A stretch of DNA of 64,000 nt, taken from assembly GCF_963678975.1 (NCBI RefSeq), contig NC_089275.1, positions 18,674,220-18,738,219 on the forward strand, written 5' to 3'. Position numbers and translations under genes: made by a program. The stretch is from Dysidea avara (taxonomy: Eukaryota > Porifera > Demospongiae > Dictyoceratida > Dysideidae). The notes beneath the pieces were generated by a model that had not been told where the DNA came from, searched no databases, and was given only the letters and a program-made list of their open reading frames with translations. Positions 41,901 to 64,000 of this stretch are shown piece after piece. The number at the start of each line of letters is the position of its first letter. Within the stretch, counting starts at the first letter, position 1.

Positions 41901-44605
41901 TATTGAACGAATAAAGCACTCTTTGCGGTGCAATAAAGCACTCTTTGTGGTCAATGAAGCAGTTGGCCGGCTGAGAGTGTACTTTATGAAATTTAAAGTA
42001 CACTTTTCCTTTGATCTCGCCAACACAAAGTTCTATAAACAACTATAAAATGCAAAATTTGGCTTAAGTGAAACCACACGTGATATCTCACAACTTATCA
42101 GTCTAGTACTTTAAGCAAAGGTAAATACTGCTTTTACCATTCTTACATAACCTTTTTAGGTAATGTGATAGACAAGCATGGAATTTTACCTGACTCAAAG
42201 AAAACCACCATGGTCACCAGAGTATCCAACACTATAGGATGCATGTCTCACCTTATTAGGGAAATTGAGAATTTGTGCAATCATGTCTTGTCTGTTAGAA
42301 AACAACAACTAAAACAGAGAGCCTCTGATTGATGTATCATTGCCCAGTCATCCTTGGGAAAATATTGTTGTAAAACTCTTTGAGCTTAGGAATTCTACCT
42401 ATCTAATAACAGTTGATTATCACTCCTGAAGTATAAAGATGAATTCAACAGTTTTGTGACACATTCAAGGGTTGAGATCATAGGCATAGCAAGATATTTT
42501 TAGATAGGGGGGCTCTAGTTTGGTGTTGAAGAGAAAAAAAAAAGGTTGACACCTGCTAAGAATGGCTGCCCTCCACTAAATAATATCAATTGTATCACTG
42601 ATAAAGCACATAAAATCCTTATTCACAAGTGAATTGTAACTTCACAGTTTGCTACATTGTTTTTCTGAACATTGTGACTGCTTTATTAGAGTAATTGACT
42701 GCTCTATTAGAGTACCTCCATCTTCTTTGAATTTACAATCAGCAAATCGTAAGGGGGCTCCAGCCCCCCTGGGTTGCTACACCTATGGAGATGGTATCAA
42801 AAATGGATATCTACACTATTTCTGAAGCCCTAAGAGGCAATTAAGCACTTGTCAAGCACAATAAGAAGGTTATTGACAAAGACTGTGTAGAGTTGCTGTA
42901 CCCAAATTTCACACCAGCAGAAAGAAACCACCTCAGAGCAAAGCATACTGTACCTATGTGGAGGCTAAAGCAGGCTTCATTTAGCCTTTCACCACGTAAT
43001 GGTTTGCTTAAGTCTGTTTATACAGACAAACATGGGTACATGCACAGATAAGTACACGTACACACACACACACACTTTATTAGGAAAGTAGGAACACTCA
43101 TAGCTTGCCTGCGACTGGCTGTAGGCAAGCACCTGGTTAAAAGTTTTAAAAATGTGCCAATACGTGAGGTCACAGATTCATACACTAACTTACTTAAATG
43201 GACTTCCTGGGATTGGTTCTCCTGCCACTAGTACAGACAAGGTGTGGACACCACAAACCCTGGGAGTATATGAGACTTCATAGTGACCACGTCCAGTATC
43301 TTTGATTGTAGCTAGTTCAGTAAGGTGAGGTATACCACTGTAGTGAACTTCAACCTTCATACAATCTGTAACATTTGGTACCCCTTGACCATGTGAGTCA
43401 TTAGCTTTAGCAGAAAAGGTGGTTATACAATTCTTCTTAAAAGGAAACGTGCATTTCATGTCACTTACGGTGCACTTTTGTATATCAATAGGTGTAAACA
43501 TTCCTAAACAAGATAACCATTTCTTCACTTGATGACTGCCATAAAACTGTATCTTCTCTTGCTCACAAACTGTTGGATTTAGATTTACGTTGCTCTTCAT
43601 TTCTTTTAGTTTATCTCTTCGCTCCAACATTGATTTCTTCATGGCCAACACATCTTTGCTAATACCTCGTTGTAGTTTGTCATCGATGAAACTCCAGCAG
43701 CTCTTCAACTGGCTTAACAAGAAACACAGTTCATCTTCCTGTACTACTAAGCCTTTATCCTTTCCCTCTGTATCCTGTGTGATCTGTTGTTGTAATTGCC
43801 TCTTTCGTTCATCTAGGGCAGCATGAAGAGCATGAAAGGCATCATCCAACCTGTGAAAGTTTTCTTCTTTCCTGTTCTTCACATCTTGTCTTTTGCTCTT
43901 TACTCCATTGATGGCTCCTTCTACTTCATCTATTAGTTGCTGGATACCAGGAAGAGCTTCCTTTAGTATCTTCTTCTCACCATCTACGACATCAGAGATC
44001 ACATCATAGTCATGGTCCTTGTGTTTCTTGATGATGCAGTCTCGACAGATCAACACATCTTCACACCTGCAGTACAACTCTAGTGGTTTGGTAGGGTGGA
44101 CGGGACACATCTCAACCTTCTCTGGTAAGATGGATGGAATATCAGTAACACTGCCTTTTCTCAGCTCATCCAGTGAGCGGATTTTGTGCCCTCTAAAGGT
44201 TCTAATTTTTCGATGTGCTTTTTCACAAAAATCACACAAGAATATAGCACACTCGCTGCACGACGACGTTGCCACTTCTCCAACTTCACAACTCTGACAG
44301 ATGGGCGTGACCTTCTTACTGCTTGCTTGTTCTTGTAGACGCACGATCTCCACCAGACGAACGACTGAAAAATGCGATGGTAACTCTTCTACAGCACGTG
44401 GAGTAGATAGCGCAACCTTTCCTCTGCATAGTGGACACTCGAGCTCACGTTTCGAAGCCTCCAAGTAGGGCAATCGTCCCAACCATTCTTTAAGGCAGCC
44501 AGTACAAAACGAATGAAGACAAGGGAGTATCTTGGGATCTTTCAGGAGATCTTGACAAATTGCACAAGTGAGCTCTTCTTTAACCTTTTCCCAGTTAGTC
44601 GCCAT
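32947..44605 (-). CDS. TRIM-type E3 ubiquitin ligase with filamin and NHL repeats
   Basis: Two coding exons: 43194-44605 and 32947-33796, phases matching, 753 codons plus stop. Residues 14-60 form a C3HC4 RING (CAIC...CLHSFC..C...CPLC), 103-140 a B-box 1, 167-199 a B-box 2 (CPVH...H..H), then a coiled coil to about 340. A filamin/ABP280 immunoglobulin-like domain (GVPNVTDCMKVEVHYSG... to ...AGEPIPGSPFK) fills the rest of exon 1. Exon 2 encodes six NHL blades (for example FHNPLGLTFNSKGLLYVVDC, FQYPRYIALDNSDQVYVTDY). This is the TRIM2/3/56/71-like class: RING ubiquitin ligases whose NHL propeller binds RNA or protein. I chose the Met at 44605 (MATNWEKVKEELTCAIC) over in-frame upstream codons because TRIM RINGs begin shortly after the start. 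The gene is intact. Paralogue identity not determined. Confidence 0.92.
33797..34948. other. TRIM intron, 3' part
   Basis: Intronic DNA with three tandem-like copies of the ACTCTAATAGARCAGTCA motif at 34296-34365 and a CTCAGTAGCTAAGTGG stretch near 34752 that resembles a tRNA A-box region. No gene seen. Confidence 0.5.
34949..35237. mobile_element. MITE with 5-bp target duplication (CAGGGGCGTAG ends)
   Basis: 289 bp in the TRIM intron. Ends CAGGGGCGTAGCCAGG and, reverse complemented, CAGGGGCGTAGGCAGG; duplication TAGAG at 34944-34948 and 35238-35242. Subterminal inverted AACCCCCCTTTT/GGGGGGTT blocks. Same style as 42479-42787 and 49063-49554. Confidence 0.82.
35535..35615 (-). repeat. tRNA-like head of a SINE
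   Basis: On the minus strand, CTTGGCACAGTGGTAAGATG fits an RNA polymerase III A box (TRGYNNARNGG) and GGTTTGAGTCC about 45 bp downstream fits a B box. Downstream sequence contains the CTATTAGAGTA motif. It is not a functional tRNA: stems do not pair well and no CCA-adjacent acceptor is seen. Confidence 0.6.
35713..36146. repeat. 20-bp minisatellite, about 22 copies
   Basis: Perfect 20-bp period of ACTGCAAATAGCTTGTATTA with two main variants at one position (CTGCAA versus CTACAA) interspersed along the array. Lies in the TRIM intron. There are no spacers, so it is not a CRISPR array. Confidence 0.97.
36852..37384. mobile_element. hAT-like MITE (CAGTGTTGGG ends)
   Basis: 533 bp; ends CAGTGTTGGGCAAGTTA and, reverse complemented, CAGTGTTGGGAGTAACG; perfect 8-bp duplication TTAATGTT (36844-36851 and 37385-37392). 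The interior is dense in GTAACT/AGTTAC steps, typical of this widespread hAT MITE type. No ORF. Confidence 0.92.
37393..38326. other. TRIM intron segment, nothing recognised
   Basis: About 0.9 kb of intronic sequence; the minus ORF at 37338-37580 overlaps the MITE end and is not credible. No repeat boundaries found. Confidence 0.45.
38327..38746. mobile_element. Harbinger-like MITE with TTA duplication
   Basis: 420 bp; ends GGCCACTCCAAATAAATTCT and the matching inverted AGAATTTATTTGGAGTGGCC; TTA at 38324-38326 and 38747-38749. A 3-bp TWA duplication is the mark of PIF/Harbinger elements. It contains three tandem copies of GAAGTTTGTGCCGAG near 38525-38570. Relative of 59828-60943. Confidence 0.82.
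39020..40165 (+). repeat. Direct duplication of a 230-bp block around a foldback element
   Basis: 39025-39260 and 39940-40165 are diverged direct copies (both contain GGGAGCTYCAGYTACTTCAA, CACTAGTTTAGG and CTGGCACAATATAG). Between them lies the foldback element at 39289-39780. Confidence 0.75.
39289..39780. mobile_element. Foldback element in the TRIM intron
   Basis: Outer arms GATACCAAGAGTATATAATA and its partner TATTGTATACCC...GATACC, with inner inverted blocks GTGATTAATGATTGCATAAA and TTTACGCAATCATTAATCAC, and AATTGTTCATTTA/TAAATGAACAATT. The target duplication is not clear. Boundaries approximate. Confidence 0.65.
40200..40292. repeat. 21-bp tandem repeat, about 4 copies
   Basis: Unit CACTTAGTCACCTGACATGCT repeated with increasing divergence at the right end. 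Confidence 0.85.
40600..40728. mobile_element. Short foldback MITE
   Basis: About 129 bp. TTAGACACCAAGACCAACTG pairs with the right-hand CTTGGACTTGGTGTCTAA, and GCAATTTAGTAACCC pairs with GGGTTACTAAATTGC. No coding capacity. Confidence 0.7.
41226..42000. repeat. Two palindromic blocks with AATAAAGCAC repeats
   Basis: 41226-41380 is a hairpin (GCTATATGAAAAATAAAGTA with TACTTTATTTTTCATATAGC, outer AAGCATAGCC/GGCTATGCTT). 41845-41960 is a second near-perfect palindrome built from GAGTGCTTTATTGCACCGC units around a GAACG centre. Together with 41700-41830 they may form one composite foldback element; no transposase is present. Confidence 0.7.
42479..42787. mobile_element. MITE with 5-bp target duplication (CATAGGCATAG ends)
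   Basis: 309 bp; ends CATAGGCATAGCAAG and, reverse complemented, CATAGGTGTAGCAA; duplication GAGAT at 42474-42478 and 42788-42792; inner GGGGGGCT/AGCCCCCC arms. It carries two copies of the TGACTGCTYTATTAGAGT motif. A diverged relative begins near 36563. Confidence 0.82.
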
Positions 44606-44701
44606 GTTTCTATTGTTGAGTTGCTCGCATATGCTTGCATGCAGCTGCAGCAATAACTGTAACCAAATATAGAAATGTTCGGGCATGTTGCTTAGCGACA
44701 A

Positions 44702-45363: not shown

Positions 45364-46866
45364 GTTATATTAGTATTAGTATTTGTGTTACAGGTAAAGA
45401 AGGCTCAAGGAGCCTGTAAAGCCTGATCTGTACAAAAAGAATTTGCAACTACATAGCAAAAACTTATATACAATAATAGTTAACTAATTAATAATCATAC
45501 AATAAAGTAGACCAGCCACTGTCAAGAAAATTTTTAAAATCATCAAGTGTGGGTGCATTAACTATGTGATTGGGTAAACTGTTCCAGTCATTGATGGCTC
45601 GTACAGTGAAAAAAGTAGATCTCACTCTTGCGGTTGCTTGAGGTTTAAATAACTCGTAATTGTGACCCGTAGTTGTTGATGAAGTTGCAGTAGTAAACAA
45701 ATCTGATGTATCTAGACTGAAATGGCTGTGTAATAGCTGATAGAACATTATCATATCACGCGCAGTCTGCGGTATTTAAGTGATGGCAAGTTTAGAGCAG
45801 TGAGGCGATCATTATATGTGTAGTTTTGAGGATCCTGGACCAATTTTGTGGCTCTTCTCTGTATCTTCTCTATTTGTTCTTGATCTAGAATGTATTGCGG
45901 TCCCCAGATGACGTTACCATACTCTAACACTGGGCGGATATATGATTTATACAAGTTGATGAATGCAGCATGGTCGAAATTCTGAAAAGTCTTGTGAATA
46001 ACTGCTAGTAGTCTGTTAGATTTCTTGGCAACTGTGGTGGTATGATCGTGAAACTTTAACTGATTGTCAATCATTATTCCCAAGTCCCTTACAACATCAC
46101 AAGATGTAATAGTAGTGCCATCAATTACATATTCACCAAATCCGTGAGGTTTACCTAAGTGTAACCAATTACACTTACTAATGTTGAACTTCAGTTGCCA
46201 TTTCTTAGACCATGCAAAAAGCAAATTTATATCTTGTTGAAGTTGGCAAAAGTCGTCCACAGTCCTGGACATCTTGACGTCATCTGCAAATTGAAAAATG
46301 GGACTATTAACTATTAAGGGCATGTCGCTGACATATATATTAAACAAAATAGAGCCCAAAACAGAACCTTGAGGCACTCCACTACTGACACTTGACCAAT
46401 CTGATGCATGACTGTTCAGTACAACTTTCTGCTTCCTTCCCACAAGAAAATTCTTCACCCACGCTAGCAGTTTGCCAGATATGCCACACCCTTGCAACTT
46501 GGAAATTAAACGGTTGTGTGGGATGGAATCAAATGCCTTAGCAAAATCAAAATACAAGATATCAACAGAATGGCCATCGTCAAGCGCTTTGGTCCAATCG
46601 TTCATGGCCAATAACAGTTGAGTTGAACAGGATCTTCCAGGAGTAAAACCATGCTGATGAGGAAGCATCACATTGTTAGTCATCAAAAGTTCTTGGATGT
46701 TGTCTTTAATGATGGATTCCAAGATTCTACAAATAGGCAAGGTCAAACTAACAGGACGATAATTGCTAACATTAGAGCGATCTCCCTTCTTATGTACTGG
46801 AGTTATTAGAACTTCCTTCCAGTGCTTGGGTAGTACTGAACACTCCAAGGACTTATTAAATAATGT
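45364..46866 (-). mobile_element. 5'-truncated LINE with reverse transcriptase (CR1/Jockey-like)
   Basis: Two frames of one pseudogene. 45751-46848 encodes most of a non-LTR reverse transcriptase: LITPVHKKGDRSNVSNYRPVS, DFAKAFDSIPH, SGVPQGSVLG and the catalytic QFADDVKM. 45488-45754 carries the C-terminus (LFTTATSSTTTGHNYEL...FFTVRAINDWNSLPNHIV) after a frameshift near 45752. The 5' end is cut at about 46866, so the endonuclease is missing. The 3' end (left side) carries AATACTAATACTAATA, a short tandem tail typical of such LINEs. Not functional. Confidence 0.9.
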
Positions 46867-48439: not shown

Positions 48440-50375
48440 TAACAAATCGATTGATTGATTGATTTTGATTTGATTTTTTGTTTAAACTCATGACGTTCGG
48501 CATAGCCGTTCTTCCACGTCAGAGTACGCTGAGACATATACAAATACAAAAGTAGCTACAAAACTGAAAAACATACAAGACATGACACATACAAAGCAAT
48601 ACATTTAAATAATACACAGATTAATTATTATTAGTCATACAGTGGGTCTTCATTAAAGTGACAAATTCTCCATGCTTGTGGGGCACTTCAAATGGTAGCT
48701 TATTCCACCAGCAAGTGGCACGATGTCGAAAATATTGCTGTGTTCTAGCCAGATGATGGTAAGTGCTGTTAGCAAAATAGGCCTTACACCAAGTGTTATA
48801 GGTGTGAGAGTGACCAAATGTTATTGGAGGTGACTAAAACAGTGATGATGAAATGCTGCCAAGCTACAGATCTCAATTTCTTCTGATATGTTAGGCCAAC
48901 CTAGCTGTTCACGTGGTACAGACACATGATCAAACTTCTTAAGGGAGAAGACTACCCTCACCGCCCTATTCTGTATACGCTGTAAGCAGCCAACTTGGTG
49001 ATTCAGAAGAGGGGTCCCCACACTGGTAGAGCATACATGATGCACGATGAAATGAGGGACTCCAGGGGTGGATCCAGGACCTGGAAAGGGGAGGGGCACA
49101 AGCAGGCAAGTTGTAGGTGGTTAGGGAGAGCCAGATCCTCTTGTTAGTTGCTGCATTTTTGAAGCAGCAACTAATACATCCCTTAGTAGTGTCTCACTTT
49201 TGATTTTTACCATTTTGGTCTTTTTAGATGGTTGTGAAGTCTTTAAAACTGTTTAAAAGGCTCTGAATGTCTTAAACAACACAACAATTATTTTTAGAGG
49301 CGCTTAGTATGCACGGAAGTGCTAGGTGATAATTTCATAGTTAGTTTGACTTTGGTTCGCTTTAGTTTCTGGTAAATTCGTAATGAATGCTAGTAAATGT
49401 GTATATTTTCGTGAATTTTATAAGCTGATCTTGGCTTGGCATAAAATTTAGTATTTTAATCAGAAGTATGGCTCCTCCACAAGGTGAGCTAATAATTGAA
49501 TTGAATTGAGGGGGGGGGATTTGCCCCAAATGCCTCATCCTGGATCCGCCATTGGACTCCATTAGCAACTTAAGAAGGGAAACAGGTAGATGTTTGTGAC
49601 TGCATCCAATGAGATATAAATAGTAAGAGCACTTGCGACACACTTCAGACACCTGAGCATTCCACTGAAGACAACAATCAAAAATTATTCCTAAATAGCA
49701 TTGCTGAGTGACAGCTGTAAGAGGTTGGTCATCAATCATAATAGCTAGGAGGATATTCTGACTTTCTTTTGCTGTGCTTGGAAGAGAACCACATCACACT
49801 TGATTTGTTAACATTAAGCCGCATCTTACTCTGAAAGATCCACTTAGAAATCAGCTCAAGGTTGTGCAATAACTTCTTCTCAACTTCTTCACAAGTATCT
49901 CCAGAACAAATTAGAGTTGTGTCATCAGCAAACTGCAAGAGGTTACCATGGTGCACCAGGGAGGGCATATCATTGACATATACTAGGAATAAAAGTGGCC
50001 CTAAGGCACTTCCCTGTGGTATACCTCCACAAACAGAAATCCATGGTGAAAAAGAACCCTCGGATTTTACTGTGACTCTCCTGCAAACGGTTGGTCACTG
50101 AAGTAATCGAAGGAAACGACCAACATCTTCAGTGGATGAGTTCAATCAACTGCTTTAGTTTAAATACTCAAAAACTTTCTTTTCTCGTGGATTCAACAGA
50201 ACAGGCTCTTCAATAAGGTTCAAGACTTGACTAGGTGATGCTACACTTATTGTCGTACACAAAGAATTCAAAGTGGTATTAAACACACAAGGCGATGCCA
50301 GCACTACTGAGGTGTGGGTGAGCCAACAAATAGAGTTCTTAAATGGAGCCCGAGATAAGGCATAAAAAGGGCTCA
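48440..50375 (-). mobile_element. Third LINE fragment, split by a MITE
   Basis: Decayed reverse transcriptase on the minus strand. GGIPQGSALGPLLFLVYVND (about 49965-50035) leads into QFADDTTLICSGD (about 49900), then QQCYLGIIFDCCLQWN (49690) and, beyond the MITE at 49063-49554, NHQVGCLQRIQNRAVRVV (48950-49000). The 3' end carries ATTGATTGATTGATT-type tandem repeats near 48450-48480. The 5' part beyond 50100 is frame-shifted. The reading frame is continuous once the MITE is set aside. Confidence 0.85.
49063..49554. mobile_element. MITE inserted in the LINE; 5-bp target duplication
   Basis: 492 bp; ends CAGGGGTGGATCCAGG and, reverse complemented, CAATGGCGGATCCAGG; duplication GACTC at 49058-49062 and 49555-49559. 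The LINE frame on either side rejoins without shift, which independently fixes the borders. No transposase. Confidence 0.85.
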
Positions 50376-50794
50376 AGATAAACCCTTAAATCAGGCCCAA
50401 GATAAGCCGCCTAAATAGGGCCCGAGATAGCTTAAATAGGGCCCGAGATAAGGCTTAAATAGGGCCAGAGATAAGCTTGCAGCTCTTAAGTCTAGCCGGA
50501 TTGTCTTAAATCGAGCCGGATTTGCTTAAAAAGGGCCCGATTTAACAGCCTATTTTTGTTACAGATGGCGTGCCATAAATCCGAGATAAGACATAAATAG
50601 GGCCCAAGATAACTTAAATAGGGCCCGAGATAAGACGCTTAGCTAAATAGGGCCCGAGATAGCTTAAATAGGGCCCGAGATAAGGCTTAAATAGGGCCCG
50701 AGTTAAGTCTAGCCGGATTGTCTTAAATCGAGCCGGATTTGCTTAAAAAGGGCCCGATTTAACAGCCTATTTTTGTTACAGATGGCGTGCCATA
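50345..50794 (+). repeat. GGGCCC-rich repeat family D, copies 2 and 3 in tandem
   Basis: Two consecutive copies (to about 50574, then to 50794), each made of several CTTAAATAGGGCCCGAGATAAGG units and ending TTTTTGTTACAGATGGCGTG followed by CCATA. Inverted relative to 44845-45060. The last copy directly abuts the left arm of the IS3-like unit. Confidence 0.85.
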
Positions 50795-51160
50795 CGCCCG
50801 CCCCTTCGCATAAAGTAAGGGTCTGGTGAAATACAGATACTAAATCATTTCTAGCGCCCAGATTCGGCGCTAGCCAATTAGTGCATGCCAATGACGTTCA
50901 CACAGAAATCGCCTTGGCATACGGTGGCCCGTTCCGGTCTACTTCTGGGAAATTTCCCAGAAATTTCTTTCATTTCTGGGAAATTTCCGAGAAATTTCTT
51001 CACTTTTTCTAAAGTTTCTCACCTTCTTCTCAATTTTTTCTCTATTCTTGAAACTTTCCCTAAATTTCTTTAGTACTTCTCGATCTTTTCTCGTTTCTCA
51101 AAAATTTCCATAGAATTTCTTTTTGAAATACGACGTCATTAGACGTCATGTGCACGTGAT
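50795..51160 (+). repeat. Left inverted arm of the IS3-like unit
   Basis: Inverted copy of 58470-58872. Shares AAAGTAAGGGTCTGGTGAAA, the GGTGGCCCGTT box and a long run of imperfect GAAATTTCY repeats to TTCCATAGAATTTCTTT, then CATGTGCACGTGAT. The middle (about 50835-50920) is diverged. It ends about 40 bp before the integrase ATG and so should include its promoter. Confidence 0.9.
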
Positions 51161-51198
51161 ATTTGTTATTATGGGATGGTGTCAAGCACGGCACTATC

Positions 51199-54100
51199 AT
51201 GGCCATTCCTGCTTTGTATACAGTGGGTGAGGAAGATTTAATATTACGTTATTTCAAAGACGATTATACATATGAGGACATTTGCAAGTTTTTACACTTA
51301 CGGCACGGTATAAACTTAACAATAGATCAACTGAGGAAGCGACTGAAGAGGATGGGCTTGCGAAGAAGAGACAAAAACGGTCAAACTTCCTTTGAAGAAG
51401 TCGAAGCGGCTATTAAAGTAAGTTGTATATCTATGAAAGTAGTTCATTCGCATACTCCCTTCTCCACAGCTGTTTAGTCTATAGCCTATCTGTAGGTCCC
51501 TAGTGGGAGATATACTTTTTTGCACCTATTAAATCCCCAACTACCATGGTCCACAGATGTGGGCTGAGATTGCGGATGGTGCAGGGAATCTGTAATTTTC
51601 AGCTCCTTACTTATAGGAGAAGTATAGGCATTCAAGTAAAGCACAGGAAAATAGCTAGTGGGACAGTCACAGGAAGGGATGTGCAATCTTGTGGTGTTGA
51701 TCTATGAATTCCAAGTTGCGAGTCGATATGCGTGAGTGGCCCCTTACATGAATACATGCAGTATCTTAGTATCCAAACGTTCAAGGGACCCACATCTTTG
51801 CCTCAGTTAATAGCAATCAATTCCCCCCTACCCCAGCCTGTATCTGTGGTAGTCAGAAATTACACTGAATGGTATATTGTAGCCTATAAAGCAAATAGTA
51901 TTCAAGAGGTAACACACAAGCACTTGCTGTAGGCTGGCAGATCTGTAACAACGGTGCGAGGACACTGGTAAAATGTTCTCCACACATCTTGTACTGGAAA
52001 AGTATCTTATTCACAGGTCAAGAATTATAAAATTGTCAGTGTTGAAGAGTCGGTATCATAGTACTACAATACAACCTGCTGCATAGCTATGAGAGCTATT
52101 CTATTAAAGAATTTCTGTTGTTTATGAATTTCTGCCTATCCTATTATGAGTTGTGAGAGGATGCTTTCATTGTATGTTGCAGGCTTTGTGTAGCTTAAAG
52201 AAGGGTGAGAAGCAATTGCTGGTTCCAAATTCCATGCTACATGGATCCAACATTGGGACAATTGTTTACATTCATTCTACGGTCTTTCAAAATAAATGTG
52301 ACTATCATTACTGCAATACTGTATTCATAGAAAGAAAGAGAGGTGTCAGGGAACTGCATTGGTTACCGCATATTGCACAAGAGGCTGAAAGAGAAACATA
52401 GTTTGCGTGTTGGAAGGTGAGTCAGTTGGTCCTTTATTTAGTCGGTAAGCAACATTTTGCTACAGAAATGTTGTGATGATGTTGTCAGCTTTGGATAACC
52501 CAGAAGGCGCTGCAGCTAGGAAAGGAAAAAAAACTGAAGAGAAGGATATATCACAGCAAGGTGTATTCATTTCACCAGATAATGCTTTATTGTACTTTGC
52601 GTCCACTTTTCTGGTGAACTGTAGGGGCCAGACTATATATGGCATTGTGACGGATATGATAAATTAAAGCCGTATGGTTTTGCCATACATGGCTGCATTG
52701 ACGGGTAAGCAATATTAAAAACAAGCGCATAATCCTTATCTAACCTTTTAACAGCTACTCACGTAGAATCCTTTGGCTTCATGTATCCCCCTCAAATAAT
52801 GATCCATACATTATTGCAGGGTACTATTTAAATTGTGTAGAAAAATTAGCAGGTTAGTTGAAAACATGAGATAAATATAGTATACATACAACCAAGCATT
52901 AATCCTCTAACTCTTGATATTACTTGTTCAACTTTTTTGCTGAATGACTTAAGCATTTTTACACTTTAATATTTTAGGATTGCTTTACTTTAATTGTCTA
53001 CTGATGTGTTCTAAGGATGAAAATTTTGTGAAAACATCAACTTGCAATCCATATAACGACATTGCGTTTGAGTATATAGTACCATAAGATAGTTGCCTTT
53101 TGGGCATTGGAATAAGTGAATAGGTGCTGCCCTCAAAAATGGCAGAGGGTGCAGTTGCCCACCCTCATCCTTCCTAATTCTCAGCTCCTGCAGGATGGCA
53201 TTTTGATCCTCGGATATACAGTATATGTAAACATATAAGGCCAAGACATAATATCCAAATGTACTATAATAACGTACATTTTTAGATTTGATAAAAAAAA
53301 GGCTTACATTTGAATATAGTGGCTGTAGCTATACTGTGTCAGTGAACATGCCTCACGGTGACAATAATTATGTATCTGTAGTGTTAGAAAGGTAATCCTA
53401 CAGTAATAGAGAAGAGAACAAACAATAGTTATTCTATAATGTGTTTCTGTATGCCATACCTTTTGTCTATTGTTTCCATTTTTAGTGTACATTGTGGTGA
53501 AACACATTGCAGCTATTGTAATAAGTACGTACTCTTTTTTTGATGCACTGAGGTCTATGAGCTGCTTTGTACTGATAGCACCGGCTACCCTTGAATATCC
53601 TCATTAGTTTTTTATACTATATTATAGGCTAATTACAGCTGCAGTGTTTAATTAATCAATTGAATGTGGTATGTTTTAAGGCATATGATAGCTAAACATA
53701 TAAATTAAAACTGATGTGTTTATTACTGTAGGGTGCCCTACAATTTTAAGAACGGACAGAGGAACTGAGAATACAAATACAGTGGATCCTCACTAATCCG
53801 AACTCCAGTAATCCAAACGCTCGATAGTCCGAACAGTACAAATGACTGTTTTATTAGAGTATTTGCAAACAAATGTATGTTCTATTAGAGTAATTGAATT
53901 AGGTTCTGTATATAATCAATGGGTTCACTAATCCAAACAAATTCACTAATCTGAACAGACTTTTGTCAACTTGAGAACAGAACTGTTCGGATTAGTGAGG
54001 ATTCACTGTATAGCATTTTTGCAGCCATTTTTGCGAGATCAACATGACGATCCCTTTGCAAAGGAGAAAAGCTTCATGTATGGCCGATCTACTTCCAATC

Positions 54101-54835
54101 AAGTTTGTTTACCTTGTATTTTATTATTTGTTTGTTTTAATCGTGCACAAACTAGCGTATTGAGGCTTGGTGGGGACAGCTCCGCAAGAATGCTGCGCAA
54201 TGGTGGATGGATTATTTTAAGGTGTGTGAAATTAGTGTTTCACATGTGATAAGTGCAAAATTGCTATGATTACAGGCTTTGAGAGAAACTGGTGAACTGG
54301 ATGACAGCAGTGAATATCATATGTAAGTAAAAGAGTGTTGAGACAATGTATATTGGCTGGATTATAGTTTGGCTAACACAGCTATAGAATTTGTCAAAAT
54401 ACACATACTTCTCACCAATTAAACAATGGATTTTGTCTGTAGTGACTGCCTTCGATACTGTTTTATGGACTTGATACAAGCTGAATTGGATTACGTGGCA
54501 CATGAATGGAACATTCATAGAATACGACCAAGTAATTATAATCCTGGTGGTATACCAGATAAGCTGTATTTTCTTCCTGAAGATGAAGGTATGATAAACT
54601 TAAATTTGAATAAAATGTTATGCAATTATTAGGGACACGATCATATAGACACACCGTGAGTAGTGATGATGTAGAATCTGCACGTGAATGGAGTGTCACT
54701 AAGCCCTGCTCTGTACCAAAGGAGTTCACTGATTTAGCTGAACATGTAATGAGTGAAGATAATATTTCAAAGCCTACAAATGCCGATGAAGCTATAGTAT
54801 TGTACAAACATTTAAAAAGTGTCTTGAGTTGTTAA
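51199..54835 (+). pseudogene. DDE integrase/transposase of the IS3-like group, interrupted
   Basis: Exons 51199-51417, 52331-52416, 52466-52562, 52625-52704, 52755-52852, 53732-53779 with 54011-54102 (one exon split by a MITE), 54156-54221, 54276-54322, 54443-54588, 54633-54835; about 393 codons. The N-terminus has two helix-turn-helix-like segments (DDYTYEDICKFLHLRHG...RLKRMGLRRR; GNCIGYRILHKRL). The catalytic core shows Asp in WHCDGYDKLKPYGFAIHGCI, Asp in ILRTDRGTEN and Glu in QRIEAWWGQLR, so DDE is complete. The C-terminal domain has ELDYVAHEWNIHRIRPS. Exon 6 is broken by a pogo-like MITE that puts a TAA in frame at once. The exon 3 donor (GTATTC at 52563) is weak; the stronger GTGTAT two bases earlier would shift the frame. 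Ends 4 bp from the kinase stop. Probable role: transposition of the flanking arms. Confidence 0.85.
53780..54008. mobile_element. Pogo/Tigger-like MITE inside the integrase exon
   Basis: 229 bp; ends CAGTGGATCCTCACTAATCC and, reverse complemented, CAGTGAATCCTCACTAATCC, flanked by TA on both sides (53778-53779, 54009-54010). Removing it with one TA restores an open frame across the exon, proving insertion into pre-existing coding DNA. It contains TGACTGTTTTATTAGAGT at 53843-53860. Confidence 0.93.
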
Positions 54836-54839
54836 ATAT

Positions 54840-57800
54840 TTATTCCCTTAGTTGTTGTATCACAGTCATCATATTGATTCTCTTTTTCTCATCATACTGC
54901 AAACAACCTTCACACACCCTTCTGATGGTTGGGTTGAGGTGTTGTACGGAAGGTAGAGTTTTAGCCACAATAAGTTGTGCCATCTCAGCATGGGTCATTA
55001 GTTTTCCCCACGCATGCTTTCTCCCGAACACTTCAGATAAGACTAAACCAAAGCTCCAAACATCAGACGCAAGGCATGTGTTTCCAAAAAAGCATTCTGG
55101 TGAAGAATAATAAGGTGTGCCTTCAGCTTTTCCAACATTTGTCATTGTACAAGCTGTTGTCTTGAGTCTGGCTAATCCCATGTCTGTTAAGTATACATGG
55201 AAAGTTCCCTTTTCAACCTGTGAACAATAATTATAATTTCTAAAAAACCATAAAATTATTTTATTCATAAATAAGTTTAAAAGTACAATATTTACTTGGT
55301 TAAACGCTGCGGCTACTATTACCTTATAGTCTCAAAAATCGATGTGGCGACTATTCAAGCTTAACCACCGTTCAATACACGTGAACGATGTTTAAGCCCT
55401 TATTTTCACAATCGATTGTGGGCCCCCCTTCAGTGCGGCAACTATTAAAGGTGCGGCGTTTAACCAAGTAAATATGGTATATTGTTTTATGTGCAGCAGA
55501 AAGTCCAAAGTAATACAAAAGTACTTGTGAAGTTCATTTGCACAATGTACAAAGCTTTTAAGGTACCATATCAGTGACATCCCATAACATTTATACCCAA
55601 TCTTTCTCTAGTAGTACTATTAAGGCACCGAAGAACTTGACAAGTACACAGACAATGCTTGCCTATATTACATCAATCTACATATGTACTTACCAATATG
55701 TTCATTGGCTTTACATCTCGATGAATAAAAGGAGGCTTTCGTCCATGCATATAAGCAAGTGCCTGTGCCACTTGATCGGTTATCGACAGTTGGTCACTTG
55801 CTGAGAGTGGTATTTTCTGTGACGATAATTACACATGTAAAGATTTCAGTCAAGTCAATAAATGTACCTCTTTGAAAAGGAGGTTGAATAAATCTCCACC
55901 ATGTACATAATTAGTCAAGATGTATATGTGATGTTCATCTCTGGAGTACCCCATGAACACAACAATGTTAGGGTGGCACAGTGAGCTGTTCAGTGTAAAC
56001 AAATGTTATAAAAGCACGTATGGAAATCATATAGCTATATAACTATTTTATCACCTTAAAACATTAATCTCACTCATGTCGACCTCATCTGATGTCAATG
56101 GAATTTGCTTTGCAGCAACAAACGTTCCATTTAGTTCGGACAGGAACACCAATCCATAACCCCCCTTCCCAAGTTTACGTCCCAGTGTAAATGATGAAAA
56201 TGGAATTAAGTGTTCATCTTCGTACATGCGTAGAGATTGAAATTGTGTTACAAAGCTGTGATATATTTACCTATTTTCTTTTCACTGCTGCGTTGTACAT
56301 CTCTCAAAGCCACCTCATCATTTGAGTCAGATGGTATTGTGGCAACAACATGAGAAGTACCTGGCTCTGGTATTGGAGTATGAACATTATCTGGCTCACT
56401 GGGAATACCGATGATCTCTTGCTATATAGATTTCCAATACACATGATTAAATATCCCATATTCAGCATATACACAAGACTGCTTACTTGTACACAGAATA
56501 TCCTAGTCTTTGATGGAAACATGCCATGCATGTGTAGATAATCTGCCAAAACCCATGGGCGGCCTTGCAAGGTGTTGGGCAACTTGCTTCCTTGCCCATC
56601 TGCCAAAAAGTATTCACGACTTGCCACACCTGCTGCGTTTTCCTTGTAACTGAAGAAGTATTTTATTCCTTCCTCAACCAATTCATCATACGTTGCTCTG
56701 GGTGCCATAGAAACCCTAACATTAGGTCCAAGTTCCTTGCAGTGTACACCACGTTGCTTTACATCATCGAACCTCATTCTACCAAGTGTAATCTAACATA
56801 ATCGAACAAACTTATTGAGTCATTTGCACACATGTGGCTAATGCCTCAAGGGGTGGATCCATACTTTCAGGGTTTCACTATTGCAACCCACACTTTTGAA
56901 GGCTCAGACCAAAAGCGGCAGAAATTTTGAGTGAATTTCAGTTTTTCTCAAGTTCAACATACAGTAAGACCAATTTGGCAACCGCCATTTGATTACATCC
57001 TGGACGGTTGCATTATTGTAGTGATGGTACAATCTATCGTATACCGTGTATCTCATGATAATCATATTGTGACAAAGCTATATTGTGATATAAAAATTTC
57101 AACTAAATACATAGTAATTGCAATAAACAAGAAACTTTCTCTGATAGAAATTTTCATCACTAGTTACAACTGCACTCAGAAACTTGTTGTTTGTATAAGT
57201 TCTCACCTGTAGACTGGCATCTAATGTTACATGTTAATTGTCGTGATAATTATCATAATCGTGATAATTTTGCTTGCAATAATCACAACATGCAATGTAA
57301 ACAATAAGCTATATCGCACATCACTAGATTTTAGTGAATGCTCTATTAGAGAATTTTGATTGTGCTTCATTGCTGATTTTTCAAAAAGGGTGCTCCATGA
57401 ACCCTCTCAAACCCCCTGGATACACCACTGATGCTTATTAGAATAGTTAGTTATACACTGACCTTAATTAAAACTGGGTTTCTCTTTTGAACACTAGCAG
57501 CACATCTTGTCTTCTTAGAGCTATTTGATCGTTCTCCTCGTTGGAGTTGCTTATATTTTTCAATAATCTCAGCTCTTTTACTGCTACCTAGTAAAATGAA
57601 AGTGCCATGTTGCTGGTGATGCCTATAAAACACTAGCTAGTCACGTTCCTCGTAAGCACCACTCGTCAATTAGAAGTTTAAAATCCCCCATTTCTAGGAA
57701 GGGGTCTGGTGAATCATCCATACCATTCTTGTTCAAAATTGTTGCATGCAAATTAAGGTTAAGGCCTTGGTGGTAAGATTATATGGTTAATGCCTTGGTG

Positions 57801-58396
57801 GTAACAACAAATTGTATGCAAAAAGTTGCTGAACAAAAAGGTGTGGGCAGACGACAAAACTTTTTCTGAGGGGGTACTTATAATCTCTAATTGATAATGT
57901 CAAGAAGTTAAGGCAATACGGTCTGGACAGGAGACTTTCATGCGACTAGCTACATATTATACAAATTAAAGCAGGCATTAAAAGGAAAAATACAAGTTGG
58001 CTACAATAAAAATGTTATGAACAAAAAAGATATTTTCTGATAAGAGCTCAAGGCAGAAGATCCTGCTTTTAAAACACCATTGCTCATGAGCACTACATAT
58101 AGAGCATTTTGTTTTGACAAAAACCAGACAGCTCTACAGACCAAAGCCAGGTTTATACATTAAAGTCAATATGCACGTGCTCGAACTACGTTCAGTATGT
58201 GTAACAAGATAACGGTTGCTGGCTTACTTGCAATTGGTGTAGGGGGTTGGATACTATGATTGGGTCCATATCTCATAATAGCTCCTGTGGTGGCTGATGA
58301 TCTGCCCTTGCCAATGATATTGATGGCTTCGTCTCCCATAATCTTGCCTTCCTTAACGCACTTGAACAAAAAAGAAACTTCATCTTTTCCCGCCAT
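54840..58396 (-). CDS. Protein kinase with an N-terminal ubiquitin-like module
   Basis: Eight exons: 58228-58396, 57463-57587, 56487-56792, 56271-56421, 56055-56217, 55868-55985, 55694-55816, 54840-55217. All GT-AG, phases agree, 510 codons plus stop, no internal stop. Residues about 1-100 are basic linker. About 100-200 (VSMAPRATYDELVEEGIKYFF...LPNTLQGRPWVLADYLHMHG) look like a ubiquitin/PB1-like fold, by pattern only. The kinase domain starts near 265: GKGGYG loop, AAK lysine, HRDVKPMN catalytic loop, DMG in place of DFG, TPYYSSPE in place of APE, SDVWSFGLVLSE. Catalytic Lys and both Asp are present, so activity is plausible. Class looks TKL/Ser-Thr. I started at Met 58396 (MAGKDEV). It lies tail to tail with the integrase. 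Substrate unknown. Confidence 0.88.
55289..55476. mobile_element. MITE in kinase intron 7
   Basis: Inverted ends TATTTACTTGGTTAAACGC and, reverse complemented, TATTTACTTGGTTAAACGC, with inner TCGATGTGGCGAC-like and CAATCGATTGTGGG text. About 188 bp; borders may be off by a few bases and the target duplication is unclear. Confidence 0.75.
56853..57431. mobile_element. Nested MITEs in kinase intron 2
   Basis: Outer ends CAAGGGGTGGATCCA and, reverse complemented, CAGTGGTGTATCCAGG, resembling the CAGGGGTGGATCCAGG element at 49063. An inner hAT-like element at about 57018-57326 has TAGTGATGGTACAATC and TAGTGATGTGCGATAT ends. Target duplications are degenerate in both. Confidence 0.6.
57690..57950. 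repeat. Degenerate MULE-like remnant in kinase intron 1
   Basis: Holds AAGGGGTCTGGTGAAT on the left and ATAATCTCTAATTGATAA plus ACGGTCTGGACAGGAGACT on the right, echoing arm sequences of the foldback MULE at 30274-30872. Too diverged to fix ends. Confidence 0.5.
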
Positions 58397-58469
58397 ATCC
58401 ACGCGCACTTTTAAGTTGTACAGTAAGAACTCTTAATTACGCATTATGACGTCGTATGCCACGAAGAAA

Positions 58470-58872
58470 TTCTATGGAAATTTTAGAGAAGTACTGATCA
58501 CGTGCACATGATCTCTTATTTCTCAAAGAAATTCTATGGAAATTTTTGAGAAACGAGAAAAGATCGAGAAGTACTAAAGAAATTTAGGGAAAGTTTCAAG
58601 AATAGAGAAAAATTTGAGAAAAAGGTGAGAAACTTTATGAGAAATGAGAAAAAGTGAAGAAATTTCTCGGAAATTTCCCAGAAATGAAAGAAATTTCCGG
58701 AAAATAGACCGAAACGGGCCACCGTATTGGCAACACAATGCTTTTGTTCGAATTGAAGTGCAATCATCTGACGTAACAAGCATTACGTGCGCTGTCTAAT
58801 TGAATTCCTTTTGAAATGATTAGGTATTTGTATTTCACCAGACCCTTACTTTTTGCGAAGGGGTGGGCGGCG
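58470..58872 (-). repeat. Right inverted arm of the IS3-like unit
   Basis: Inverted partner of 50795-51160. It includes an extra local duplication of TTCTATGGAAATTTTWGAGA near 58467-58550. Ends 75 bp before the kinase start codon and so should include the kinase promoter. Confidence 0.9.
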
Positions 58873-59827
58873 CCAGACTAGGGTCTGGTATGGTATGCTT
58901 AGTATAGTGGAGTTGTACCGGATTACCAAAAACTGGTGCAACCAATCAGAACGCTCCACGTTTAATCAGCACATTTTTGTGTATGTTACGTCAAAAGAAT
59001 GAATCAAATGCCCTAACAGTACTGAAGAAACATAAGGAGTTAGCTAATAAAGAACAAATTAGGAGAAGAAAGTGTTATATCGGGAAAGGCTTTTCGCCTT
59101 GTTTGATACGCGAAAAACCCGGGTACGCTCTGATTTCCTAGGTAGGGAGACGTGTGTACTTTATAAAAGTAGACCAATCCACTTTCGCCTGTGTAAAGGT
59201 AGGGTCCGCAATCCGAAAAATCAACTTTTACAAATCGAACCCCCTACCATTGTGGGATGTTCATTGTGGTATCCCATTGCTAGATCCACCATGAAACCGG
59301 AGGCACGATTGTCGTCTTCACAGAAATATCAATTTTAGTATTTCGTGAGAAGCAAAAATTATTTTTAAAATTTTGTGCTCCACACAAACAACAGGATAAA
59401 ACTTACTGCTTAGCTAGATATTATCTAGAGTTAATGTAGTTTAAAAGTACGCACAGAAATAAGCAAATGATTCACTGGATTCCTGGCACAGAATTGCTTT
59501 CTCTCGAAAACGAAACACAAATTTTCGAATTCAAACTGCCCTACCAACCAAGACAAGAAAAGCCAACTCTTCCTCATAGTGATGTGATAAAGTTGGATGC
59601 ATAGTCTGTCTATGCTGTTAGTCTGGAAAGGATCTGAGACTTCTCACCATCTGGGTGAAGAACGTCAAACTTTTCGTGCGTCATTTCAAGGGATTCTCTA
59701 AATGGTACCAAAGTGCTTTCCAGTACTTCTGATGCCACAATGGTCACTTAATTTTGTTTAGAATGATGATAAATGATGGATCAAAACGTTTGGTAGTAGT
59801 AGTTGGTGTTTCTGTGATTTCATATTA
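58873..59827. other. Unassigned DNA right of the IS3-like unit
   Basis: The only ORF of note, 59072-59338 plus (88 codons), has no recognised domain. CCAGACTAGGGTCTGG at 58872-58887 is a small palindrome next to the right arm. Nothing else recognised. Confidence 0.4.
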
Positions 59828-60943
59828 GGCCACTCCAAGTCATACCTTAGTTTCTGGTCACTCCCTAGCCAACAAAAGGATGCGGGCGGGCGGATGATCA
59901 GGACTTCAGGACTATCATAGACTCTTACATATACACCAGTAATACTGTAATGTTATTAATTTTGCTCAATTTACCCATTTCATATTGAGTTTACAACCAA
60001 GCTTAACCAACATTCTTATAGCATAAGTAGTTAATTATGCTTCTGCAAAGTGCACCAGGAAAATTGTTGATGGCTAGCTACACTGCTGAGCACAACAATG
60101 TGTAGCTAACACTAAGGAAAGGTCTGCTCATGTAGCTACTTTTGCTTTACAAATGAAATGTTTCATTAGCTATGTCAGGAAATTATTATTTATTAGCTAG
60201 CTAATAATAATCCAAAACTATATTAACACATCAGAAACTCTTTCAAATCTGAAGTCTTAGTCAACTATATATGCATGTGTTTCCAGCCTTCTATACAGTA
60301 AACCTTCAGTAAAGTAGCTGTCAAAGTTTTGAGTTGAGTTGTTGAGTGCTCCAGGCTAGTGTTTTTCAGTGATCATGTGGGAAAGCTAAGTTAATGTTTT
60401 AACTAAGGGATGCCATGCACTTGTTAATTTAGGACCATACTTGCAATTATGTAATCATGGAAAAGTTGAAGTTTGAGCTCACCAAATGTTACCGGATTTC
60501 TAGTCAGTATATCAGTGATCAGTGATAAGGAAGTCCAAGTTTAGATCCACTAGAAGAGTTACTAGATTAATCATTAGAGGACCACATCTGAATTGTTAGG
60601 AAAGTTTAAGCTGTGGTATATCTGATCATTAGGATAGTGATCAATGCTACATACATACTGTACTGAAGTTACTTACTGGCAACAGAAGCATTACTAATAG
60701 CTATATAGCTAATCAAGGACAAGTCAAAAACGTTATAGTAGTATCTGTCTATTCTAGTATTAAAGTTAAGGGTAGTGTGACTGCTCTATTAGAGTATCTC
60801 GATCTTTTGCAATGTTTAAAAATCACTGTCCTTGGTCACGTACACTTAAGCGCCTGTAATATTAATAATAGTCCTCATAAACTGGGGTTCCAGTTTTCCA
60901 TGCGGGCGGGTGACCAGAAACTAAGGTTTGACTTGGTGTGGCC
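59828..60943. mobile_element. Harbinger-like MITE, 1.1 kb, TTA duplication
   Basis: Ends GGCCACTCCAAGTCATACC and, reverse complemented, GGCCACACCAAGTCAAACC, continuing through TTAGTTTCTGGTCAC and GCGGGCGGG blocks on both sides; TTA at 59825-59827 and 60944-60946. No transposase ORF. It carries the TGACTGCTCTATTAGAGT motif at 60778-60795. Confidence 0.82.
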
Positions 60944-61002
60944 TTATCTGAAAACGTTCGCGATCAGAACCGTAACGAACTGGAACTATCCCGGATTGCC
61001 GT

Positions 61003-61140
61003 GATGTCGACGGATTCCCCTCAGCTCGAGCACACACAACACATGCCACAGTATTCTCACGTGATTAAACATTACATAATACATTCTAAATAGTACACAC
61101 TAATTCTAAATAATAAGCGCTATATAACCTGTTCTCTACA
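61003..61140 (-). repeat. Probable 3' LTR of the second BEL/Pao element
   Basis: On the minus strand the LTR would start TGTAGAGAACAGG at 61140, directly after a GGAGAAAA purine tract. The distal end near 61003 (..GTCGACATCA) is a guess because the partner LTR is beyond the window. The polyprotein stop codon (61136-61138) lies inside the first bases of this LTR. Confidence 0.5.
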
Positions 61141-64000
61141 TTTTCTCCGGGGGGCGGCGTAGTGTATTAGTCCACTCTGAAATGTTCTTCATAGCTCTAG
61201 TAGCAGCTGCTCTCTTAGGTCTTGGTAGTACTGGACCATCACATTGAACATCAGTATTAGATTGTTGTTGCATACTTACTGGGGTTGAACTATCCTCTGT
61301 ACTCTCTCCAGTCAAATTGTTATTTGGAGTGCTGACAACTTCCAACGGATATAGTCTGGTGATGGGTCTATTAGTCTTGTAGTTAGCAGTTGAAATGTGG
61401 GCTGAGCGAACTAATCCATCATTTCCCTTGACTAGATCATCCACTATAGCCAACTTCCAGTGGAGTCTTGGGGTGTCATCATGGACCAACACAACATCAC
61501 CCTTCTTGATGCACTGTTTGTTATTTCCTGAAGCTTTGTGAAGTTCTCTAAGGGCAGTTAAATATTCCCTTTTCCAACGAAGCCAGAACTGTTGAATAAG
61601 TCTTGAGTGCTTGTTTACAGCCTTTCTCATGTCTTTGTCAGTCAAGTAGGATGGATCAGTGATCTCCTCCTGGTCATCAATAGGGTGTGGAGCAGACACT
61701 ATTCTTCTGCCGTACATGAGGTGAGCTGGGGTAAGAGGTTCAGGGTCAGAAATATCGGTAGACACATAAGTAAGTGGTCGATCGTTAAGCATGCTCTCAA
61801 TCTTGACAACAACTGTCTCTAAAACTTGCAGTGATACAAACGTTCTTCCTAGGGTTTTCTTTACTGCCTGCTTTGTGAGGCCTATAAGGCGCTCCCAAAA
61901 CCCCCCATACCATGGGGCCCGTTTAGGTATAAAACTCCATGTGACGTATTGACGCCCCAAAGCTTCCTTCAGATCATCAGATTCAAACAGTTCCTTAATT
62001 TCCTCCGCAGCAGCACGATAAGTAGAGGCATTGTCAGATAGCATCTGTGTTGGGAGTGACTTTCGACTTGAGAATCTACGAAAAGCAAGTAAAAAACTAT
62101 CCACAGTTAAGTCATGTACAATTTCTAAATGCACTGCCCTAGTACAGGCGCAGGTAAACAAGCATATGTAAACCTTCCTCTCTCCTGTTGTGTCTCTTAC
62201 ATACAGTGCCCCAGTGATGTCAACTCCTGTGACTTTAAATGGCTGAGATGCTTCTACACGCATTCTTGGTAACGGTGGAGGATCTGGAGCTTGGTAAGGT
62301 TTACCCATGAGTCTATTGCATGTCACACACTGGCGTAGCTGCTTCTTGACTCGTTGTCGAATAGTCGGAATCCAGAAGACTTGTCTCAACGCGGTTATGG
62401 TGGTACTGACTCCAGCATGGTGAAGCTTCTTGTGTGTTTGTTGTATAAACATGTCAGTCAGTAAGTGTTTGGGGGGTAGTAGAATTGGAAATTTGGCAGC
62501 ATCTGCTACAGGGGCATTGTGTATTCTGCCACCACATCGTATGAGGTTACTCTTGTCAAGGAACAATCTCAGCTGCTTAACCAGCGTAGGGCAATGGTGC
62601 TTGCTCCTCTTCATCAAATAGGAGAGTTCCTCCTTGAAACATGAGTGCTGGCTACTTGAGATCCAGAGCTTCTTAGCTGCCTGCAATTCAGAAGCACTCA
62701 AGGGTCCACTTAGTCTAGTGTGTTGTCGAGACAAATTGTGAGTAAACCTCAAAACATATGCAGTTACAGCTAACAACTTGTAGATGTTACTATGGCGTGT
62801 TATGGTGACAACATTTGAAATACCTGTAGTAATGCTGGCGTCATCTTCTGGTGTAGTCACTTCTACCTCCTCCTCAGCTTCTGCTATGTTGATGTGTAGA
62901 ATACCTGTTGGCAACCACTTGGGCCATTCAGATTCTGATGGTAACCAGCAGGGACCTTGAAGCCACAACTGTGAAGAAAATAACTGCTGGGCTGATATGC
63001 CTCTTGTAAGTAGGTCAGCTGGGTTGTCTGATGTTGGAGTAAATGACCACATCTTAGGTGGGAAGGAGTTGACAATTTCAGTGACACGGTGATTGATAAA
63101 TGGCTTTGAACTGGTCTGTTTGTAAATCCAATACAGCACAATTTGGCTATCAGTCCATAAGTGAGTATTGGTAGACAAATTGTAACTATGTAGTGAAGAC
63201 TTGACAAAGTTAGCTAGTCGAGAAGCCATTACTGCAGCCATTAACTCTAGTTTGGGTAGTGTAACAGTCCTAGTAGGAGCAACTCGGCTCTTGGACATCA
63301 CTAAACAGACCTTGCCCTGCTGACATAAGTACACTACTGTGCCATAAGCTTTGGTGCTGGCATCTGAAAACACATACATGTTACAAGTATTGTACCTCTG
63401 ATTAGATGGTGTGAAGTAGGGTCTTGGTACTGTTAGCTTGGGTAACTCAAACAAGTCAGCAAGAATACCGATCCATCTGTCTCTGATATCAGTTGGTAGA
63501 GGCTCATCCCAAGAGAGCTTGCTTTGCCAAATATCTTGAAGTAGTATCTTGGCCTTAATTGTAATGGGTGTAGCCCATCCTAGAGGATCATAGATTTGTG
63601 AGGATGTTTGCAACATGTCTCTCTTGGTAAGTAGATTTGTGTTAGTGGACAACTTCTTTGGGGAGAGCGACAAAGTATCCGTTGCTATGTTCCACTGTAA
63701 CCCCAAAATTCCAACTGTTGTGCTAGGATCTCCTGTCTTCTCTTTGGCTACAAGTTCTTGGAGCTGTTGACTGTTAGAGGACCACGACCACAGATTAAAC
63801 TTTGCCTTACCCATGATTGTTCTAGCTTGAGTGTAGTACTGTACTACTTCCTCCTCTGTATCACAGCCTGATAAAATATTATCTACGTATAGATTCTCTT
63901 TCATATCATCAGCTATGGGTGAAGGCGTATTGTTTAGATGTAGATTAAGAACAGCAGCAAGCATGAAGGGGGAACTACAGGAGCCAAATGGTACAACTGC
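61136..64000 (-). CDS. BEL/Pao Pol, 3' part, continues past the window
   Basis: Open frame running off the right edge (no start inside the window; the first Met is at 63964 but coding continues upstream of it). From the edge: the end of reverse transcriptase with LYVDNILSG (YVDN form of the catalytic box), the QIYDPLGWATP connection, RNase H with VFSDASTKAYGT, and a zinc-binding segment ending CVTCNRL. The integrase core has Asp in GVDITGA (about residue 580 from that Met), Asp in LSDNAST (about 643) and Glu in GGFWERL (about 690). The C-terminus is Pro/Ser/Gln-rich. No frameshift or stop in 2.8 kb, so this copy may be intact and recent. It is clearly a different lineage from the element at 1807-7929. 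Confidence 0.93.
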   Translation of the reverse strand, partial: AVVPFGSCSSPFMLAAVLNLHLNNTPSPIADDMKENLYVDNILSGCDTEEEVVQYYTQARTIMGKAKFNLWSWSSNSQQLQELVAKEKTGDPSTTVGILGLQWNIATDTLSLSPKKLSTNTNLLTKRDMLQTSSQIYDPLGWATPITIKAKILLQDIWQSKLSWDEPLPTDIRDRWIGILADLFELPKLTVPRPYFTPSNQRYNTCNMYVFSDASTKAYGTVVYLCQQGKVCLVMSKSRVAPTRTVTLPKLELMAAVMASRLANFVKSSLHSYNLSTNTHLWTDSQIVLYWIYKQTSSKPFINHRVTEIVNSFPPKMWSFTPTSDNPADLLTRGISAQQLFSSQLWLQGPCWLPSESEWPKWLPTGILHINIAEAEEEVEVTTPEDDASITTGISNVVTITRHSNIYKLLAVTAYVLRFTHNLSRQHTRLSGPLSASELQAAKKLWISSSQHSCFKEELSYLMKRSKHHCPTLVKQLRLFLDKSNLIRCGGRIHNAPVADAAKFPILLPPKHLLTDMFIQQTHKKLHHAGVSTTITALRQVFWIPTIRQRVKKQLRQCVTCNRLMGKPYQAPDPPPLPRMRVEASQPFKVTGVDITGALYVRDTTGERKVYICLFTCACTRAVHLEIVHDLTVDSFLLAFRRFSSRKSLPTQMLSDNASTYRAAAEEIKELFESDDLKEALGRQYVTWSFIPKRAPWYGGFWERLIGLTKQAVKKTLGRTFVSLQVLETVVVKIESMLNDRPLTYVSTDISDPEPLTPAHLMYGRRIVSAPHPIDDQEEITDPSYLTDKDMRKAVNKHSRLIQQFWLRWKREYLTALRELHKASGNNKQCIKKGDVVLVHDDTPRLHWKLAIVDDLVKGNDGLVRSAHISTANYKTNRPITRLYPLEVVSTPNNNLTGESTEDSSTPVSMQQQSNTDVQCDGPVLPRPKRAAATRAMKNISEWTNTLRRPPEKM

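Follow-up and report, generated by a model that had tools for sequence, protein, structure and literature searches.

A two-gene IS3EU-type DNA transposon with a eukaryotic-type protein kinase gene in the sponge Dysidea avara

Complete families of the IS3EU superfamily of DNA transposons (Repbase; IS3EU/GingerRoot) have been described as having TA..TA ends and, usually, 6-bp target-site duplications, and the word kinase does not occur in the main text of that description (PMC10045372). In rusts and other fungi, all TET-positive IS3EU families contain a TET gene between oppositely oriented transposase and alpha-kinase genes, with 6-bp duplications and, in the rust families, TAYGG..CCRTA ends (PMC12730594). 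Rusts have a greatly expanded family of alpha-kinases (PMC4469406). Styx of Zymoseptoria, a four-gene element derived from IS3EU, encodes an IS3EU-type transposase and moves even as copies with a degenerate transposase; its other three genes encode DNA-binding motifs or a domain of unknown function, and no kinase (PMC10853768). Kinases are unmentioned in the available text of PMC9587614. For the sponge Dysidea avara, 15 chromosomes and a 575-Mb assembly have been reported, and the words transposon and transposable are absent from the main text of that report (PMC12909245). Here, we describe a kinase-carrying element of this type in a 64,000-nucleotide stretch of the D. avara genome (the window; assembly GCF_963678975.1, contig NC_089275.1, C4:18674220-18738219 in the contig numbering of this analysis).

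The element (Table 1) is very probably a two-gene IS3EU-type transposon of which a putative tyrosine kinase-like (TKL-like) kinase is a permanent part, rather than a host gene captured accidentally. With the IS3EU superfamily it has in common TA..TA ends, 6-bp duplications, terminal inverted repeats (TIRs) and a DDE transposase of the rva_4 type, and with the TET-positive fungal elements a kinase gene opposite the transposase gene. It differs from the latter in having no third, middle gene and in its kinase, which is an ordinary eukaryotic Pkinase unrelated to the alpha-kinases of fungi. Kinase-carrying IS3EU elements are thus already known; judged from sequence, the ordinary protein kinase is the variant here. 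In the literature surveyed, no IS3EU element with an ordinary protein kinase was found, although most subscription papers, the GingerRoot paper and Repbase lay outside its coverage, so that a prior record is possible.

A first-pass annotation of the window had proposed two inverted arms of 350-400 bp at 50795-58872 enclosing only two genes, arranged tail to tail. The inverted arms and the gene arrangement are real, the two stop codons lying a few bases apart, but the ends are composite. The arms as single repeats were rejected, since each consists of a TIR of the element plus one outer half of an older miniature inverted-repeat transposable element (MITE). In a genome search with the left arm (40 of 748 candidates scored), the matches split at base 125: bases 1-125 recur elsewhere in the genome in short elements, while bases 126-369 recur at members of the transposon family. 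Two uninterrupted copies of the MITE (L028 and L029) align with the left half of the interrupted one through TTGGCA and with its right half beginning at that hexamer again. The 6-bp overlap of the halves in these copies is the target duplication, and the MITE copies represent the empty site. The two TIRs are 84% identical over 251 alignment columns. A further copy of the same family, L012 (C10:12314560-12324559; duplication GATTTA), seemingly also lies in a MITE of this kind, which hints at a target preference. A short way to the left of the nested MITE lies a minisatellite (50338-50747) of 20-24-bp units (TTAAATAGGGCCCGAGATAAGG-like), at which a 92-bp exact duplicate pair (50486-50577 and 50703-50794) is also found.

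Further copies with both genes between matching arms are present in the genome in two families. A search with the inner repeat, in which all 32 first-look candidates were scored (37 rows, five of them secondary matches inside arms), returned 12 pairs of ends, five single ends and three distant matches (69-75%). All 12 pairs, termed family 1, enclose kinase and transposase matches on opposite strands, in genome searches that scored 84 of 880 candidates for the kinase and 106 of 312 for the transposase. At the nine family-1 loci examined, the left end is TACGG in eight and the right end CCGTA in eight, and perfect 6-bp duplications flank five. Three of the five single-end loci match both genes, L023 has kinase exons 1-3 only, and L024 has transposase exons only over the 9.3 kb fetched; at two single-end loci on C12 the kinase search matched only the last kinase exon, with exon 7 added at one.

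Kinase matches of 40-57% identity led to a second, diverged family (family 2). A search with its end sequence (40 of 60 candidates scored) gave 42 matches, of which 24 pair into 12 elements; rows beyond these 24 were left unopened. The left end is TACGGTGGCCGG in all 12, and the right end CCGTA in nine and CCATA in two (unreached in C4). A kinase match lies in every family-2 element and a transposase match in 10 of the 12 by the first search, while C8 and the second C12 element match weakly (E 2e-4 to 5e-4) in a search for rva_4; eight have perfect 6-bp duplications. By eye, the two genes stand on opposite strands in all 24 paired elements of both families. Among the candidates scored, no two-ended copy without a kinase was found in either family, and no copy of the kinase at a host locus. 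The identification of the window kinase as a host gene was rejected as well: among the 84 of 880 candidates scored, every match above about 40% identity belongs to a family-1 locus or to one of the 12 family-2 elements, and those that follow, at 29% (C13) and 35% (C11), are separate kinases. A chance arrangement, in which an integrase unit landed next to a host kinase gene and the two happen to be flanked by unrelated inverted repeats, might be suggested by the outer arm parts, which are indeed unrelated MITE sequence; however, both genes are matched in 24 of 24 elements with both TIRs, and we count this explanation as refuted. Judged by the refuting conditions that the first-pass annotation had set itself, so far as these could be applied, its proposal of a two-gene transposon is supported.

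The kinase gene is complete, with the 510 codons first reported and GT-AG introns. Pfam Pkinase matches residues 261-506 (E 6e-44), and an NCBI model from D. avara (P0001) is identical to the window kinase over its 325 amino acids. The motifs GKGGYG (267), VAAK (284, with Lys287), HRDVKPMN (376) and DMG (397) are present, DMG replacing DFG in the window kinase and in all four family-2 copies read; the Gly loop, Lys, HRD, Asn and DMG motifs are kept in the family-2 copies C2, C9 and C15. We infer from the sequence that the kinase is catalytically active. With P0001 as query, the closest solved structures are CTR1, LysM and other receptor-like kinases, followed by NEK1, BMX, TAK1 and IRAK4, and we read this list as pointing to a TKL-like kinase domain, taking CTR1/Raf-like kinases, TAK1 and IRAK4 to belong to the TKL group. 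The likeness to these kinases, NEK1 and BMX included, is confined to the kinase domain; for the N-terminal 200 residues, nothing outside these elements was matched at the sensitivity of the searches. Within them, the conserved domain encoded by exon 3 has no Pfam match and no credible match in the Protein Data Bank (best E 0.23); its AlphaFold2 model from a single sequence has a confidence score (pLDDT) of 54, too low for a structure search. In viral contigs, none of 21 pattern matches was confirmed. An alpha-kinase identity was rejected, the only Pfam matches being Pkinase, PK_Tyr_Ser-Thr and a weak Haspin, with PF02816 unmatched. The D. avara genome has 22 alpha-kinase matches, none of which coincides with these elements.

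Both proteins have been kept by selection, because synonymous sites are saturated between the families. In a comparison of the window kinase and the transposase exons of the family-1 copy L010 with C2, kinase identity is 48%, with proportions of synonymous and non-synonymous differences (pS and pN) of 0.81 and 0.34 (423 codons; exon 4 unaligned), and transposase identity is 71%, with pS 0.75 and pN 0.21 (244 codons; exons 1-3 uncounted). Three lineages can be told apart, namely the window family, C2/C9 and C11/C15. The last two are 57-59% identical in the kinase and 72-75% in the transposase, while the window family differs from both more widely (48-55% and 64-71%), so that kinase and transposase rank the lineages alike, as read from identities over differing codon numbers and not from a tree. 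This is as expected if the two have travelled together.

Several observations weigh against this reading of the element. Over the 66 pairs formed by the 12 copies of the window family, the kinase has a pN/pS of 0.61 and the transposase, with exon 3 left out, one of 0.30; within the kinase it is 0.88 for exons 1-4 and 0.40 for exons 5-8. These values do show, on the sequences compared, that the N-terminal part of the kinase has recently been less constrained, and a recent loss of constraint there is possible; however, they bear less on function because much of the divergence is decay after insertion. Stop codons, frameshifts uncounted, interrupt the kinase in six of the 12 copies and the transposase in five, and family-2 copy C11 has Thr at the position of the catalytic Lys. 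No kinase with the exon-3 domain was found outside D. avara, a database search of 784 candidates that required shared 5-residue words returning only the model of the window itself. The duplications are also uneven: in family 1, that of L009 is imperfect (4/6), L014 and L018 lack one, and for L021 the right end is unlocated; in family 2, four of the 12 pairs lack a perfect duplication (C12, C10, C6 and C4), these pairings being less certain. The weak constraint on exons 1-4 and the stops in half of the copies are what might be seen if an ancestor had captured a host gene as passive cargo of no use to the element. However, unused cargo would decay, while here the kinase is retained in all 24 paired elements and, despite saturated synonymous sites, 48% protein identity and most catalytic motifs are kept between families; passive cargo is therefore quite improbable.

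The kinase might instead serve the host cell, for example in growth or stress signalling, and so pay the way of the element. TKL-type kinases act in growth and stress signalling pathways, and CTR1, receptor-like kinases, TAK1 and IRAK4 are among the solved kinases closest to this one. Yet the kinase decays about as often as the transposase in individual copies, and the 84 scored candidates include no copy outside the elements and hence nothing that points to retention by the host at one particular site, so that service to the host appears unlikely, if somewhat less so than passive cargo.

The other gene encodes, as first annotated, a DDE integrase of the IS3-like group, and more exactly an IS3EU-type transposase with an rva_4 DDE core; in the window, however, it is broken by a 226-bp MITE in exon 6. 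Three D. avara transposase models match rva_4 (PF24764) with E 5e-34 to 1e-26, and the closest database proteins are the D. avara models P0121-P0123. Three residues, D, D and E, which we take to be the catalytic triad, are invariant across 18 transposase sequences, with a spacing of 58 and 40. Exon 1 has weak Clr5 and helix-turn-helix matches under the Pfam cut-offs. The start of exon 2 and all exon positions after 53785 were placed by eye, guided by copy L010 and model P0123. A run of A in exon 3 has one length in the window copy, L010 and L015 and another in 11 copies (15 copies have the exon; L014 is unmatched by the pattern); the window length is out of frame with P0123, which comes from another copy, although one-base differences in such runs may be sequencing errors.

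A genome search with the MITE of exon 6 scored 40 of 803 candidates; besides the two element copies, it listed 38 others, at 92-99% identity. One element copy, L009 on C3, is 99.7% identical to the window copy over 7.2 kb and contains the same MITE at different flanks. The broken element therefore moved after the MITE had inserted, presumably mobilised by transposase from other copies. In a genome search for rva_4 (150 of 226 candidates scored), one other locus was read, L030, which has neither a kinase frame nor long terminal repeats within 7 kb. Twenty rva_4 frames of 390-500 amino acids were listed (counted by eye; L030 is one of them), none at a scored kinase match; these may be kinase-free IS3EU elements or domesticated genes.

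The arms may act as promoters of both genes. Each of the 16 family-1 arms tested (eight copies) contains the motif ACGTCA/TGACGT, half of a CRE (cyclic AMP response element) site, against a background of 0.125 per 400 bp in the whole window. Of the 14 arms for which a start codon was located, 12 have the motif 56 bp upstream of it, and this holds at both ends of the element. As the copies are related, this count amounts to about two independent observations; none of six family-2 arms tested contains the motif.

For the kinase, on balance we favour, as somewhat probable, a helper role in transposition, because the kinase stays with the transposase, is absent only from a truncated locus, and its copies decay rather than settle as host genes. 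The DDE transposase would cut and insert the element, leaving the 6-bp duplications, and the kinase encoded on the opposite strand, a eukaryotic-type (TKL-like) enzyme with its own N-terminal domain, would aid this process, either through phosphorylation of the transposase or through an effect on host factors of repair or silencing. The unmatched N-terminal domain may be a targeting module, and the kinase would work in trans.

Table 1. Positions of the transposon, its genes and its insertion site in the window
Feature	Position	Strand	Remarks
IS3EU-type transposon, complete, 7,807 bp	50920..58726		ends TACGGTGGCC..GGCCACCGTA (TACGG..CCGTA)
TIR left, transposase side	50920..51160	+	element positions 1-241 align to 1-230 of opposite end
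TIR right, kinase side	58497..58726	-	aligned to left TIR
Target-site duplication TTGGCA, left copy	50914..50919		single in uninterrupted MITE copies
Target-site duplication TTGGCA, right copy	58727..58732		single in uninterrupted MITE copies
Older MITE (insertion target), left part	50795..50919		100% identity to L028 and L029
Older MITE (insertion target), right part	58727..58880		98-99% identity to L028 and L029
Transposase gene, about 10 exons, broken in window copy	51199..54835	+	rva_4/PF24764 DDE core
Transposase exons 1-5	51199-51417, 52331-52416, 52466-52560, 52625-52704, 52755-52852	+	exon 2 start placed by eye
Transposase exons 6-10	53732-54102 (interrupted), 54156-54221, 54276-54322, 54443-54588, 54633-54835	+	
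MITE, 226 bp, in transposase exon 6	53786..54011		common to copy L009
Kinase gene, 8 exons, 510 aa, frame open	54840..58396	-	GT-AG introns
Kinase exons 1-4	58396-58228, 57587-57463, 56792-56487, 56421-56271	-	
Kinase exons 5-8	56217-56055, 55985-55868, 55816-55694, 55217-54840	-	
Kinase exon 3, residues 99-200, N-terminal domain of 102 aa	56487..56792	-	51-52% identity between families

Elsewhere in the window, a BEL/Pao-type retrotransposon frame of 942 amino acids (61136-63964, minus strand) matches Peptidase_A17, DUF5641 and integrase in Pfam. By eye, two long overlapping frames of 842 and 1014 amino acids (2143-7654, minus strand) seem to belong to a second BEL/Pao-type element, a reverse-transcriptase-like frame of 365 amino acids (45751-46848, minus strand) to an element without long terminal repeats, and a 503-amino-acid frame with a RING and B-box look (43190-44701, minus strand; TRIM-like) possibly to a host gene. 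Two 44-nt inverted repeats (59818-59861 and 60910-60953), 91% complementary and 1,048 nt apart, may mark a small transposon.

To our knowledge, few eukaryotic DNA transposons encode an enzyme capable of acting on signalling. It is tentatively suggested, at rather less than even likelihood, that animal and fungal IS3EU elements have independently come to hold unrelated kinases in one shared position, on the strand facing the transposase; in that case, transposition or escape from the host would involve phosphorylation in this superfamily, and a kinase would be a general second component of such elements. A kinase kept by selection in the sponge, and an unrelated one in the same orientation in fungi, make it a testable question whether IS3EU transposition depends on phosphorylation, and of what.

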